64,000 nucleotides of DNA from Candidatus Halocynthiibacter alkanivorans (GTDB lineage: Bacteria > Pseudomonadota > Alphaproteobacteria > Rhodobacterales > Rhodobacteraceae): contig NZ_QOLB01000091.1 in assembly GCF_003333265.1 (NCBI RefSeq), forward strand, positions 1 through 64,000. Direction: 5' to 3'. Shown in pieces: positions 34,979-44,134 of the stretch. Numbering within the stretch: the first letter of the stretch is position 1; every line of letters begins with the position of its first letter. Position numbers and translations under genes: made by a program. The notes under the pieces are model-generated. The model did no database searches. It had not been told where the DNA came from and saw only the letters and a program-made list of their open reading frames with translations.

Positions 34979-35935
34979 ATGACACAGATTTACAGCCTGG
35001 CAGATATCGAGGCCGTCCTGCCAAAAATTGATCTGGTGAAAGAGATTGCATCCGGCTTTGCTGCCTACTCGCAAGGACTGGTCGAGGTGCCGCCGGTGGG
35101 CGAGTTGCTGTTCCCCGGGCGCCACGGTGAGATGCACATCAAATACGGCGCAATCGGCGGCGATGATGTTTTTGTGATCAAAATCGCCACCGGTTTTTTT
35201 GAAAACCCCAAACTCGGACTGCCGCCTTTCGGGGGCTGCATGCTGGTGCTCAGCCAGACCACCGGCCAGGTTGAGGCTGTGCTGCTGGAAGAGGGCGTGC
35301 TGACCAACCACAGAACCGCAGCAGCGGGCGCGGTGGCGGCACAATATCTGCAGCCCGCCAGCGTCAACCGGATCGGCATTGTCGGCACCGGCGTTCAGGC
35401 CCGTCTGCAGGCGCTGTACCTGAAGCGGGTAAACCCGTGCCGCGCGGTCACGCTCTGGGGGCGGACAAGATCTGCGGCCGAAGCGGCGGCGCGTGACATT
35501 GCGGCTTTTGGCTTTGAGGTCCGGATTGCTGAGACGATTGAGGAACTGTGCGATGACTGCCGGTTGATCGTCACCACCACCCCCTCCGGAACCCCGCTTC
35601 TGGACGCCGGCATGATCCGGCCAGGCACCCATATCACCGCCATGGGTTCAGACACGCCGCACAAACAAGAAATCTCGGCAGACGTGATCAGAATGGCCGA
35701 TCTGGTGGTGGTCGACAGTATTGATCAATGCCAGAGCAGGGGCGAGATATCGCGCGCCCTCAAAGCCAGGGCGATAACGGCGCAAGAGGTAAGCGAGCTT
35801 GGTGACATCGTCGCGAACAAGAAGCCGGGCCGTCGCCGGGACACGGATATCACCGTCGCGGACCTGACCGGCGTGGCTGTGCAGGACATCGTGATCGCAA
35901 AAGCCGTGATGCAGCAAATGCGGCTTCAGGACTAG
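34979..35935 (+). CDS. Ornithine cyclodeaminase/mu-crystallin family dehydrogenase
   Basis: A 318-residue NAD(P)-dependent enzyme. Landmarks are HIKYGAIGGDDVFVIKIATGFF (substrate lysine region, about 50-71), the Rossmann motif GIVGTGVQARLQALYL (about 131-146) and TTTPSGTPLLD. Family members act as ornithine cyclodeaminase, alanine dehydrogenase, or imine/ketimine reductase. The ATG at 34979 has GGAGAAAG eight bases upstream. It is the last gene of the cluster. With the PLP enzyme it could convert a cyclic or beta-substituted amino acid through an imine; the true substrate is open. Confidence 0.88.
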   Translation: MTQIYSLADIEAVLPKIDLVKEIASGFAAYSQGLVEVPPVGELLFPGRHGEMHIKYGAIGGDDVFVIKIATGFFENPKLGLPPFGGCMLVLSQTTGQVEAVLLEEGVLTNHRTAAAGAVAAQYLQPASVNRIGIVGTGVQARLQALYLKRVNPCRAVTLWGRTRSAAEAAARDIAAFGFEVRIAETIEELCDDCRLIVTTTPSGTPLLDAGMIRPGTHITAMGSDTPHKQEISADVIRMADLVVVDSIDQCQSRGEISRALKARAITAQEVSELGDIVANKKPGRRRDTDITVADLTGVAVQDIVIAKAVMQQMRLQD

Positions 35936-36752: not shown

Positions 36753-37438
36753 TCAAGCAACCCGTAAAGCGCCAATATTCCCGACTTCACGGACGATCTC
36801 TTGTGTAAGAATTTCAACGGCTTTTGACCGGGATTTTCTGTTTGAACGAATGACATATGCGACGTCAGGCGGCGGCGTGAAAATATTGTCGATCACTTGC
36901 ATTTCAGGCGTAATATGGCGCCCGTTTAACAAAGACACACCCAGGCCCGATACAATCGCAGAGGCGATGCCAGCGGTGCTGGAACATTCCAGTACGATAT
37001 CGATAATATGTTCTTGCGACCGTCCGCACTCCAGCGCCCAATGTCTGAAAAAGCAGTTTTCGTCGAATGAAAGAAAGGGAATAGGTTTGGAAATATCAAA
37101 CTCGTAATCAAAGGATTTGATCCAGTGCAACTGATCTTCGTACAGGACGATATCTGTGGGCTGCACGTTCGATTTGAATATTTGCATCACGGCAACATCT
37201 ATAAGTCCGTCATTCAGCTCATACGCATCAAGAGCTGTGTGTGCAGCATCAATCAATCGCCCGTCATTGGACAGGCCCAGATAATTATTCGAACACAGGT
37301 TGATCAGCGAACGCGTTTCGTACCCGGTTTGCATTTCAACCGTCCCGCCGTGGGGCGAAACAAACGGACGTTCGGATTTAAACAGCTTTGATTTTTCAAA
37401 GCTTCAAGTTCTGACCTTAGACTATCAATCAGCGTCAT
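36753..37438 (-). pseudogene. Chimeric remnant: kbl-like 5' end joined to lysR 3' end
   Basis: Reading the minus strand from ATG 37438, the first part resembles the start of 2-amino-3-ketobutyrate CoA ligase or 8-amino-7-oxononanoate synthase, with INLCSNNYLGLSND as the hallmark; a frameshift occurs near 37380. At about 37220 the frame passes directly into the last 145 residues of a LysR effector-binding domain (ELNDGLIDVAVM onward, with SSTAGIASAIVSGLGVSLL). No intact gene has this order, so a deletion probably fused two genes. Neither part should be functional. Confidence 0.7.
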
Positions 37439-37636: not shown

Positions 37637-39031
37637 ATGTTTGTAAGCACCCGCAGCGATGGAGATCTGAAGCAATTTGACGACACACTGTTGTCTGCTT
37701 TGGCAAGCGATGGTGGTCTGTATCTGCCAGCTGGGTTGCCAGGCTATTCTGTTGAAAAAATGCGCGAAATGCAAAAGTTGGGATATTGCGATCTTGCAAG
37801 TGAAATTCTGCCTGATTTACCTGGATCGGGCATTCCACGAAACGATCTGAAGGACCTGATCTCAAGCGCTTATGCAGAATTTGACCACTCCGCGATTGCA
37901 CCTTTGAAATCCATGCAGTCTGGAATTTGGTTGTTGGAACTGTTCCACGGTCCAACGCTGGCGTTCAAAGATTTCGACTAGCAACTGTTGTGCCGCAGTC
38001 TGGATTACAAACTGAGCCAAAGAGGTGAACGGGCGCTCATCATTGGAGCAACATCGGGGGATACAGGCTCAGCGGCGATACATGCCTGCAAATCAGTCAA
38101 AGCAGTCGACTTGTTTATGCTGCATCCAAAAGGTCGGGTTTCAGACGTCCAACGCCGCCAGATGACCACAGTATCCGCGCCCAACCTTCATAACTTTGCA
38201 GTGGATGGTACATTTGATGATTGCCAGACAGCGGTGAAAGCGCTGCTGAACGATCCTGACTTGAATAGGGTTCAGCATGTCACCGCCGTAAATTCCGTTA
38301 ACTGGACCCGGGTTGCGGCCCAGGTGGTGTACTATTTCTATGCCGGCCTTGCTCTTGGTGCGCCGGACAGGAAAATTGATTTCGTTGTTCCGACCGGAAA
38401 CTTTGGGAACATCTGCGTTGGCCATGTCGCACGCAAGATGGGGCTGTCTGTCGGGAATTTAACGATTGCGTCTAACCGCAACGATATCCTGACCCGTTTC
38501 TTCGAAAACAGCAGCATGAAAACGCAGCTAGTTCAGCCATCCCTGACACCAAGTATGGACATTCAGAATTCCAGTAACTTTGAACGCTTGTTATTTGAGC
38601 TTCTGGACGGCAACGGAGCGAATGTTGCACAGCTGATGCAAACTTTCAAAGAGACAGGTGAGTTCTCTGTTTCGGCTGAGGTTATGTCAAAAGCACGTGA
38701 TCTGTTCTCCGCTGTCCGGGTGTCAGATGATGAAACCAAAGCGGAAATGGCTCGAATATTATCAGAAACTTCCGAGATCGTAGATCCCCATACTGCGGTG
38801 GGTCTGGCCGCTGCGCGCCAGTCTCTGAGCTCTGCCGACAATGCAATGGTTGTGCTTGGAACCGCTCATCCGGCAAAATTCCCCGACGCCGTGATGGCAG
38901 CAACCGGCCGTGTACCTGATGTCCCTGAATCGCTGCATATCTTGCAGGGCCGCGAAGAATTCGAGTCCGATATTGCGAATGACATTGACGTTCTCAAGGG
39001 CAAAATATTGTCCACTCTGCAGAATTCATAA
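37637..39031 (+). pseudogene. thrC: Threonine synthase interrupted by one amber codon
   Basis: Threonine synthase makes threonine from O-phosphohomoserine. The reading frame covers the full family length (464 codons) in one frame, from MFVSTRSDGD to the C-terminus, including the PLP lysine motif LAFKDF and GATSGDTGSAA. A single TAG (37979-37981) follows KDFD, just after the PLP lysine, at a position usually filled by Leu or Met. Downstream sequence is intact and domain-like (PTGNFGN and others). Unless the codon is read through or is an error, the gene is inactive. It heads a thrC-thrB-glxA-like operon. Confidence 0.85.
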
Positions 39032-39048
39032 GAACTGGCTAAGCACAA

Positions 39049-40025
39049 ATGGCTGTATACACAATAATCGAAGCGGACGTCATGGCGTCGCTATTGACCC
39101 CCTATTCGATTGGTGAGCTCATCAGTTTGGAGCGAATATCCAATGGAGTGGAAAATACCAATTACAGGCTTCGAACCACTTCTGGCCGGTTCATCGTAAC
39201 AATATACGAAGATCGCGTGAATACCGATGATTTGCCCTACTTCCTGTCTGTAAAACAGAACCTTGCCCAATCTTCTCTGCTGGTTCCGAAACCCATCGGG
39301 AATAAGAGCGGCCAGGTCGTCTTCGAATTCGGCAATAAATTTGGCGCGATCTTTTCGCATCTGAATGGGCATGAAGTTCAGGCCATCGGGAAAGACGAAT
39401 GTTTCCTCGTTGGCGAGACGCTTGCCAAAATTCACAGTGCAAAAATGCCCAACGCTCTCAACCGCCCCAACAATATGGGCCCGGATAACTGGGTGGAAAT
39501 GTAGGAGGATTTTGCAGGACGCCAGGATATCAGCATCGAAAGCGACCTGAGCTGGTTTCCCGAAGGCTTTAGTTTGTCGTGAGAAATTGGCCTGAAAATC
39601 TCGAAAAGGGCGTGATCCAAGCCGATCTTTTCCCCGATAATGTTCTGTTTGAACAGGGGCAGATTTCTGGCGTACTCGATTTCTATTTCGCTTGTAACGA
39701 TATGTTCGCATATGACTTAGCGATAGCAATAACCGCTTGGTGTTTAGATAAAAACAATGATTTCGCGCCCCAGTTAGCCATCGCTTTACTTGATGGATAC
39801 ACGTCATGCCGTTCTCTGAAACATGCCGAACAATTGGCCCTGCCCATCTTACTCAGAGGGGCCGCTATCCGGTTCAGCCTTACCCGGCTTGCAGACAGTT
39901 TTGCCAAAAAGGCCGACGCGGGTTTGCAAAAAAGCCCTGCCGAATTTTTGCAACGTTTACAGTTCTTTCGCTCTGAAGCGGAAAACGCCGCAACAGACAA
40001 GCCAGTCTGGAGACAACGGTTATGA
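39049..40025 (+). pseudogene. thrB: Homoserine kinase (type II) with amber codon and frameshift
   Basis: Homoserine kinase of the aminoglycoside-phosphotransferase fold: VENTNYRL near the start and the catalytic loop GVIQADLFPDNVLF with the metal-binding DFYFACND. The frame is broken twice: TAG at 39502-39504 after NWVEM, and a frameshift near 39572, after which the second half reads in another phase from 39579. The sequence on both sides is clearly ThrB, so decay is recent. It starts 17 bases after thrC and overlaps the next gene by 4 bases (ATGA). Confidence 0.85.
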
Positions 40026-41065
40026 GCTCCAAACTGACAGAATTGTGGCCCGAAGTTTATGATAAAACATCGGTTGGGTCAGATCGGTTTTTAACGCCCG
40101 GTCCTTCCTTTCTGAAACTGGAAAACGCGGTAAAAACCCGGCACTATTATTTCGTTCTTTTGCCAAAAATGACGATGCTTGCTTTCAGCTCTGCTGTGGA
40201 GCCTCTGCGTGTTGCCAACCAACTGACCGGGCAGTGCATTTACCGCTGGTATGTGATTTCGGAGGACGGCAAGTCTGTAGTTTGTTCAAATGGAATTTCG
40301 GTTGCCGTCGATTTTGCTTTGCACCCGGTTGAGCGGCAAGACACCATCATTGTGTGCTCGGGTCATGATGGCTATTCGGCGGCTGGATCAAAGACCCTGG
40401 GGATGCTGCAGTTGCACCATCGCCGCGGAGGTCAGGTCGGGGGCATATACACAGGCGCCTATACTTTGGCCCGTGCAGGGCTTCTTGAAGACTAGAAATT
40501 TACCCTGCACTGGGGCAACCAGCCCGCCTTTGAAGAGCGCTTTTCCAGGCTTGAGGTCTCGGCGCAGATTTATGAAAAAGACGCCGGTATAATTAACTGC
40601 GGCGGCGGGACTGCGGTCACGGATATGATGCTTGCGATAATTGAAGAAGATTATGGCCGCAAACTGACTCATCTGGTCATGGACATGTGTGTTCATGGCA
40701 AAAAACGGAATGCAGACACCAGGCAGAAAGCGTCGATTGCAACTACAATCAACAGCCGCAACGGGCGATTGATCAGGATCGTTCACCGGATGCAGGAAAA
40801 TACCGGAGAGCCGCTGAGTTTCGACGAACTGACGTGTCTCGAAGGTATTTCAAAACGTCCGATGGAACGGCTTTTCAAGCGGCATCCTGGTGTTGGCCCC
40901 TCACAACATTATATTAGTATTCGACTGGACTACGGTCGCAGCCTGGTCTTTGAAACCGACATGTCAGTAACGGAAATTTCGGTAGCTTGCGGCTTTTCCA
41001 GCTCGTCAGATTTTTTAAAGTCATACAAAAAACGATTTGGCGTATGTCAGAGTGCGGATATGTGA
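40022..41065 (+). pseudogene. GlxA-type AraC family regulator with one amber codon
   Basis: The frame of about 347 codons encodes an N-terminal DJ-1/PfpI-like domain (YFVLLPKMTMLAFSSAVEPLR, GGIYTGAYTLARAGLL) and a C-terminal AraC helix-turn-helix (MSVTEISVACGFSSSSDFLKSYKKRFG). A TAG at 40493-40495 follows LLED within the first domain, and the same frame continues with KFTLHW. The position corresponds to a residue often Tyr or Arg in relatives. The family Cys before TGA is replaced here by Tyr. It overlaps thrB by 4 bases; it probably once regulated the operon or neighbours. Confidence 0.82.
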
Positions 41066-42465: not shown

Positions 42466-42600
42466 GGTTCCCCCAATGCGACATCACGGGTCGTCATGAC
42501 GCTTATCTGCCCACGCTCAATTGCACAGACTTTATCCACCAGCCGCCCGGATTGGGTGCAATCAGGCTCTGAAACCAGCACCGATATGCGCCTGGATTTC
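42462..42600 (-). pseudogene. Possible ABC transporter ATPase C-terminal remnant
   Basis: On the minus strand a frame ending in TGA (overlapping the Fe-ADH ATG) reads ISVLVSEPDCTQSGRLVDKVCAIERGQI, resembling the H-loop and following strands of LivF-like ATPases (VLLVEQ, LADR, LERG). No Walker motifs are found upstream; a different frame occupies 42600-42660. It may be the tail of a deleted transporter gene. The call rests on one short segment. Confidence 0.35.
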
Positions 42601-43419
42601 AGATCGCGATCACCCCCACCAACCGCTGCGCCAAAACACTGCGCTGGCGGGCGATGAGCGTCAACCGCGCGAACAAATAATTATGAGCAAAAATCGCTCA
42701 TGTTGATGTTTGACCGCCTGCTCTCACAAGTGACTTGTAGAGAATGGTAAAATGGGTGTCAGCCTGACGACGCGGAACCGCTTGAATGCGCCTGGAGCCG
42801 CAAAGCTCCCATTCGTTGCATCGCGGATTGCTGTAATTCCGGGCTCGAACCAGCCGTTCGCTGTGGTCTGAATGAAGGTCAGCTAAGAGCCTGAAGTAGA
42901 ATAATACTGCGATTCAATGCAACGAGACCTGATATTAAGAACGCTCCGAATTTGACGCTGATCAGTGTCATCACCCGCCAACAATTTTTAAGCATGACTG
43001 CACCTCACGTGCCCGATAGCGACGGCGCGAAAAACCGACATGTCGCTCAGATGCTACGCTAACTGACAAAGTTAGCCACGGGTCCCAACCCGTCTCATCA
43101 ACGAGCGGTTTACCGGGACAAGACAGGCACAATTTAACAGGTGGACAGAACGCTGGGTTAAAAAACATCCACCACCGTCAACCATCTGATTTACATGATT
43201 AAATATGATTTAGATACCGCCCCCACACGGCTCTACGCTACTCGCTTACGCGTTGTTTTAAAAGATTATCAGGGCATCCATATCAGAGTGTGCAGGCGTT
43301 TGGGCAGGTGGACACAACAGACCCAAGGCGATCTCCAGACAGGGATTCCGAAAATTCGTTTTCCGACGCCCCTTTAGCCACTGCGGACAAACGTCAGGAA
43401 TTCTTCCGAATTGTGTCGA
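42601..43419. other. Gene-poor stretch with one dispersed repeat
   Basis: Only short unsupported frames are present. The segment 42853-42880 (GCCGTTCGCTG, then CTGAATGAAGG) matches a similar segment at 59214-59240. A T-loop-like GGTTCGAGCCC on the minus strand at 42841-42851 is not part of a tRNA. Codon-free composition and lower GC suggest eroded accessory DNA. Confidence 0.5.
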
Positions 43420-43659
43420 TCATTGATCGAAACCGGAGTCACCGAAACGCATCGCAGAGCCGGGGTCGGCTGGAAAAAAAATCGCCAGCTGATCCGCCAC
43501 TCTCACACAGATAACCCGGTTGTTCACTTTTGGGCTTGGCAACTTCTTGTCTGCAGCACTCCACGCTCTGAAGCACTCAGCCATAGTGTCATATTCCCCT
43601 AACCGACTTAATGTGTCGCCATTTGCCGAAATAGAAATCAAAAACAAGACCCATTTCAT
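43420..43659 (-). CDS. Small hypothetical protein
   Basis: A 79-residue protein starting at ATG 43659, with GGTGAG five bases upstream. The start MKWVLFLIS, followed by YDTMAECFRAW and an ICVRVADQ segment, gives the look of a real small protein family seen in proteobacteria rather than random sequence. One weak hydrophobic N-terminal stretch could act as a signal or anchor. No domain was recognised and it has no operon partner. Confidence 0.5.
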   Translation of the reverse strand: MKWVLFLISISANGDTLSRLGEYDTMAECFRAWSAADKKLPSPKVNNRVICVRVADQLAIFFPADPGSAMRFGDSGFDQ

Positions 43660-44134
43660 ACGTCTCACCATTTATCTATTTGTTTTTAAGCAGCAATCCC
43701 GCGGCCGGGTCAAACTCGCGTCACGTCAGCAGCCCCATGTACAAACCCGAGTATACTCTCATTCAAATTCCACGTCAGTTGACCAGAGTATCTATATGCA
43801 AAGAAGTTCCGTTTGCTTCCAGATTTCACTGCGCAAAGCCTGAATGAAACACCACGGAATATCAGACGGGGACGCAAGGTCCCATGCCCTGACGTTGCAC
43901 CCTTCAACCAACCAAAAGGTTCCGCCGCCCGGGACCCTTCGATTGCCTGGCGTCAGCGCATTTGGGTCCAATTCGGCTGATATACCGTTTCAGCTGAGCT
44001 TTCTGAAGGTTGATACTTCTTGCCACAACGCCGTCGGCAGGCATAACTTTAGCCTCAGGCCCCGCCTATTTGGGAAATATCTGATTATTTGAAGCTTAAC
44101 TCTGGTTGTTGATCGAAACTCTGGAACGAGAAAG
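43660..44134. other. 475-bp gap, no gene recognised
   Basis: This lies upstream of the MetE-C-like gene and presumably holds its promoter. No repeat or hairpin stands out. Confidence 0.45.

Follow-up and report, generated by a model that had tools for sequence, protein, structure and literature searches.

The block of adjacent thrC, thrB and regulator genes described here is, with high confidence, a decaying and probably foreign accessory threonine operon, in which TAG acts as the normal stop codon and the all-amber nonsense pattern is a coincidence. This is ordinary gene decay, a kind of phenomenon that is already known. The window, defined as the whole stretch of 64,000 nucleotides of contig NZ_QOLB01000091.1 (Candidatus Halocynthiibacter alkanivorans) that was analysed, contains the following features:

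36753-37205, minus strand: C-terminal portion of a LysR-type regulator in an in-frame fusion with the kbl remnant (matches the Pfam LysR_substrate profile at 50-205, with no HTH part; the junction near 37205 is approximate)
37205-37436, minus strand: N-terminal remnant of kbl (2-amino-3-ketobutyrate CoA ligase), frameshifted near its start (phmmer matches to KBL chains)
37637-39031, plus strand: thrC pseudogene, the third thrC of the genome, outside the thrC clade of the family (TIGR00260 match; tree)
37979-37981, plus strand: premature TAG of thrC; Leu or Met in relatives (translation; residues of relatives)
39049-40025, plus strand: thrB pseudogene, an APH-fold homoserine kinase of the TIGR00938 type, carrying a TAG and lacking 1 nt (TIGR00938 halves; codon spacing)
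39502-39504, plus strand: premature TAG of thrB; F, A, Y or V in relatives (translation; residues of relatives)
39505-39580, plus strand: interval of thrB containing the 1-nt deletion (spacing against relatives; genome profile search)
40022-41065, plus strand: pseudogene of a GlxA/GbdR-like AraC-family regulator, DJ-1/PfpI plus HTH_18 (profile matches; an open relative, 58% identical)
40493-40495, plus strand: premature TAG of the regulator; R, K, H or M in relatives (translation; residues of relatives)

Translation of 37637-39031, 39049 to about 40025 and 40022-41065 confirmed the in-frame TAG that the initial annotation had reported in thrC, thrB and the GlxA/AraC-type regulator. Its description of the frames as long and domain-complete apart from the stops also held, as the profile matches extend across the breaks. 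With the TAG read as X, thrC scored 246.9 bits against the threonine synthase profile TIGR00260 (cut-off 167.1), the two halves of thrB matched positions 1-152 and 180-306 of TIGR00938 with 123.6 and 148.4 bits, and the regulator matched DJ-1/PfpI and HTH_18. A full-length TIGR00938 match above the cut-off of 255.9 was not reached by thrB, in which the HxD motif is absent too. The frames past the TAGs are still open, and that of thrC keeps the PLP lysine. The three frames therefore resemble the TIGR00260 ThrC, TIGR00938 ThrB and GbdR-GlxA AraC regulator families, each being interrupted here, with thrB lacking the HxD histidine.

The frameshift previously noted in thrB was borne out by codon spacing. 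Between N39487 and the last base of PDNV (39644) there are 158 nt, whereas the corresponding segment, GW through HADLFPDNV, measures exactly 53 codons (159 nt) in each of six relatives. The loss of one nucleotide can be placed only to the interval 39505-39580, and if it lies upstream of 39570, a TAG at that position also falls in the thrB frame. The whole-genome profile search reads the deletion in this way, while the sequence is compatible with either placement; the amber total is thus three and possibly four. The claim of exactly one amber per gene accordingly stands for the three clear TAGs, but thrB may have a second.

Changes at conserved sites accompany these breaks. The thrC frame differs from its relatives at 5 of 91 near-invariant columns, compared with a mean of 0.35 and a maximum of 3 among the relatives, and with 0 and 1 deviations in the other two thrC loci of the genome. 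One of the five, A114D, places a charged Asp in the near-invariant Ala position adjoining the TAG. In thrB, the HxD motif has changed from HAD to QAD, its His being present in 11/11 relatives; other counts of conserved-site change in this gene are confounded by divergence. The regulator carries C143Y, where 18/19 relatives have Cys. The thrC deviations and the His-to-Gln change in thrB indicate that constraint on conserved positions has been relaxed.

The block is more damaged than first described, since the divergent minus-strand kbl remnant is also broken. The remnant was recognised by a phmmer match to 7bxp_A (E 6.7e-9); its frame is interrupted by stops upstream of 'SKLFKSERPF' and is frameshifted after about 15 codons. 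At 36753-37436 on the minus strand, the start of kbl continues without a frame change into the C-terminal portion of a LysR gene. This chimera is likely a deletion scar, and its frame may be called as a gene by automated annotation. Inactivating lesions are thus found in more than one gene and are of more than one kind, comprising the TAGs, the 1-nt loss in thrB, the kbl frameshift and the kbl-LysR fusion. Such varied lesions in neighbouring genes support recent decay, which had been offered as the simple reading. The decay would be recent, and weak translation possible, given that the frames away from the breaks are long and domain-complete.

The tree places the thrC of the window outside the Rhodobacteraceae/Paracoccaceae clade, to which the genome's own copy on contig C4 belongs. 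It clusters with a pair of gammaproteobacterial MAG sequences (99/85), on a long branch that leaves its exact position unsure. The GC3 of the block is about 0.5, against 0.6-0.73 in most intact neighbours. A search with the thrB half against 393 other genomes of the family returned only generic APH proteins (best 30.7 bits), and no full TIGR00938 match was found among 79 further family genomes, whereas a thrB of this type occurs in most families sampled from the class. Given the foreign grouping of thrC, the low GC3 and a thrB type not found in any of the other family members sampled, the block was probably acquired horizontally from outside the host family. Its relatives are distant, at most about 56% identical for thrB in a class-wide search and about 52% for the closest thrC. 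The best relative of the regulator (58% identical, frame open) lies in a different neighbourhood, without thrC or thrB nearby. No intact copy of the block was detected in a close relative, among the 393 other family genomes searched with the thrB half or in plasmids, nor was an intact donor copy found; viral contigs held one distant partial thrC. The search for flanking repeats marking an insertion gave only weak, chance-level matches. Separately, about 1.7 kb at 42466-44134 is without a long intact gene and gave no Pfam match in six frames.

We propose that the thrC-thrB-regulator operon and the divergent kbl would have been acquired from outside the family by a Rhodobacteraceae-like bacterium, presumably as a single unit. 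Each of its genes would have been inactivated, through several independent lesions: nonsense mutations, small indels and a deletion that fused kbl to a LysR gene. A full-length product is expected to be absent.

The genome has two further thrC loci, both of which are open. One, at 10886-12244 of contig C4, is of the family's own kind, and the other, near 40035-41357 of contig C114, groups near Aurantimonadaceae sequences (87/85). Judged from these groupings, thrC-like genes may have entered the genome on more than one occasion. No other recognised homoserine kinase was found in the genome, so that the broken thrB at 39049-40025 is the only recognisable one. This counts against decay, as it might favour keeping thrB. 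However, neither Phaeobacter inhibens nor Dinoroseobacter shibae needs added threonine for growth, although both lack any known ThrB (PMC5764234, PMC7311316), and the native ThrB of the family is still to be identified (PMC7311316). As the family lacks a known ThrB yet makes threonine, losing an acquired thrB need not harm the cell.

An in-frame TAG within a long frame is also what pyrrolysine or other UAG recoding would present, and the initial annotation had asked that amber read-through or a recoding donor be excluded. At the thrC TAG, the relatives have L or M in 81/81 sequences; at that of thrB, F, A, Y or V (7 sequences); and at that of the regulator, R in 14, K in 4, H in 3 and M in 1, duplicate loci counted. 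No amino acid is common to the three columns. At every site the relatives include a residue with a codon that differs from TAG by a single base (Leu TTG, Tyr TAY, Lys AAG), the pattern that ordinary nonsense mutation would leave. Release factor RF1 is present in the genome (482 bits, cut-off 423). A search for suppressor tRNA or pyl genes, the check proposed earlier, turned up 44 tRNAs in the draft genome, in which some may be unassembled, and none of the 44 has a CTA anticodon; the one tRNA cut by a contig end has the anticodon CAT. No pyrrolysyl-tRNA synthetase scored above the cut-off of 178.15 bits in the genome, the best matches (28.5 and 20.4 bits) sitting in frames of 716 and 614 aa. 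Intact neighbours terminate in TAG, as had been observed before, one example being a 318-aa protein of the OCD family that ends at 35935, with its domain covering residues 6-314. Nothing in the genome sequence suggests that TAG would be read other than as a stop, and there is no sign of a recoding donor for the block. The residues, the missing tRNA and PylS, RF1, the TAG-ended neighbours and the additional lesions, including the thrB frameshift, all oppose the recoding proposal.

The absence of any other stop type had been considered striking. For one-step nonsense mutation in each of three genes, modelled by the one-base paths to each stop from the codons present, transitions being weighted 1 to 4, the probability that all are TAG is 0.05-0.08, and that all are of one stop type 0.13. 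As the pattern was selected after viewing, these values do not make it striking, and the amber-only pattern is a coincidence.

Reassignment of TAG to one amino acid, whether in this genome or in the block's donor, would account for all three clear premature stops being TAG. Its probability is close to negligible, since the three sites share no residue in relatives, the decoding machinery was not found while RF1 was, intact genes end in TAG and an all-TAG set is expected by chance in 5-8% of cases. Near-cognate tRNAs might read through the ambers, in a leaky or regulated way, and yield a little full-length protein from one or more genes; this has a precedent in bacterial genes whose in-frame stops persist under purifying selection and are sometimes read through (PMC7918605). 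Such genes resemble these in their in-frame TAG and the open frame beyond it, and the retained PLP lysine of thrC would agree with read-through. We nevertheless consider it very unlikely: the same TAGs occur in no relative, the thrB frameshift and His-to-Gln change are beyond rescue, an Asp has replaced the near-invariant Ala beside the thrC TAG and the neighbouring kbl is truncated. That thrC and the regulator are still weakly expressed in this way, the operon being dimmed rather than dead, is very unlikely indeed, and a functioning operon is likewise made very unlikely by the frameshift, the catalytic-residue change and the gene fusion.

Assembly or sequencing error might be suspected in a draft of 170 contigs. 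It is extremely unlikely here, as several lesion types, with a gene fusion and conserved-site missense changes, are clustered in one compositionally distinct block while the genes flanking it are intact. Gene decay remains the preferred reading, and the block resembles bacterial pseudogenes and decaying acquired islands in having nonsense, indel and fusion lesions in adjacent genes, an atypical GC3, a thrC function that is redundant and no close kin in the family. The sole difference is that its three clear nonsense codons all happen to be TAG.

The result removes one candidate for amber recoding. For the family, it is of modest value: a recognisable homoserine kinase would have entered a lineage whose own enzyme is unidentified and then been lost, which fits the presence of a working native enzyme.
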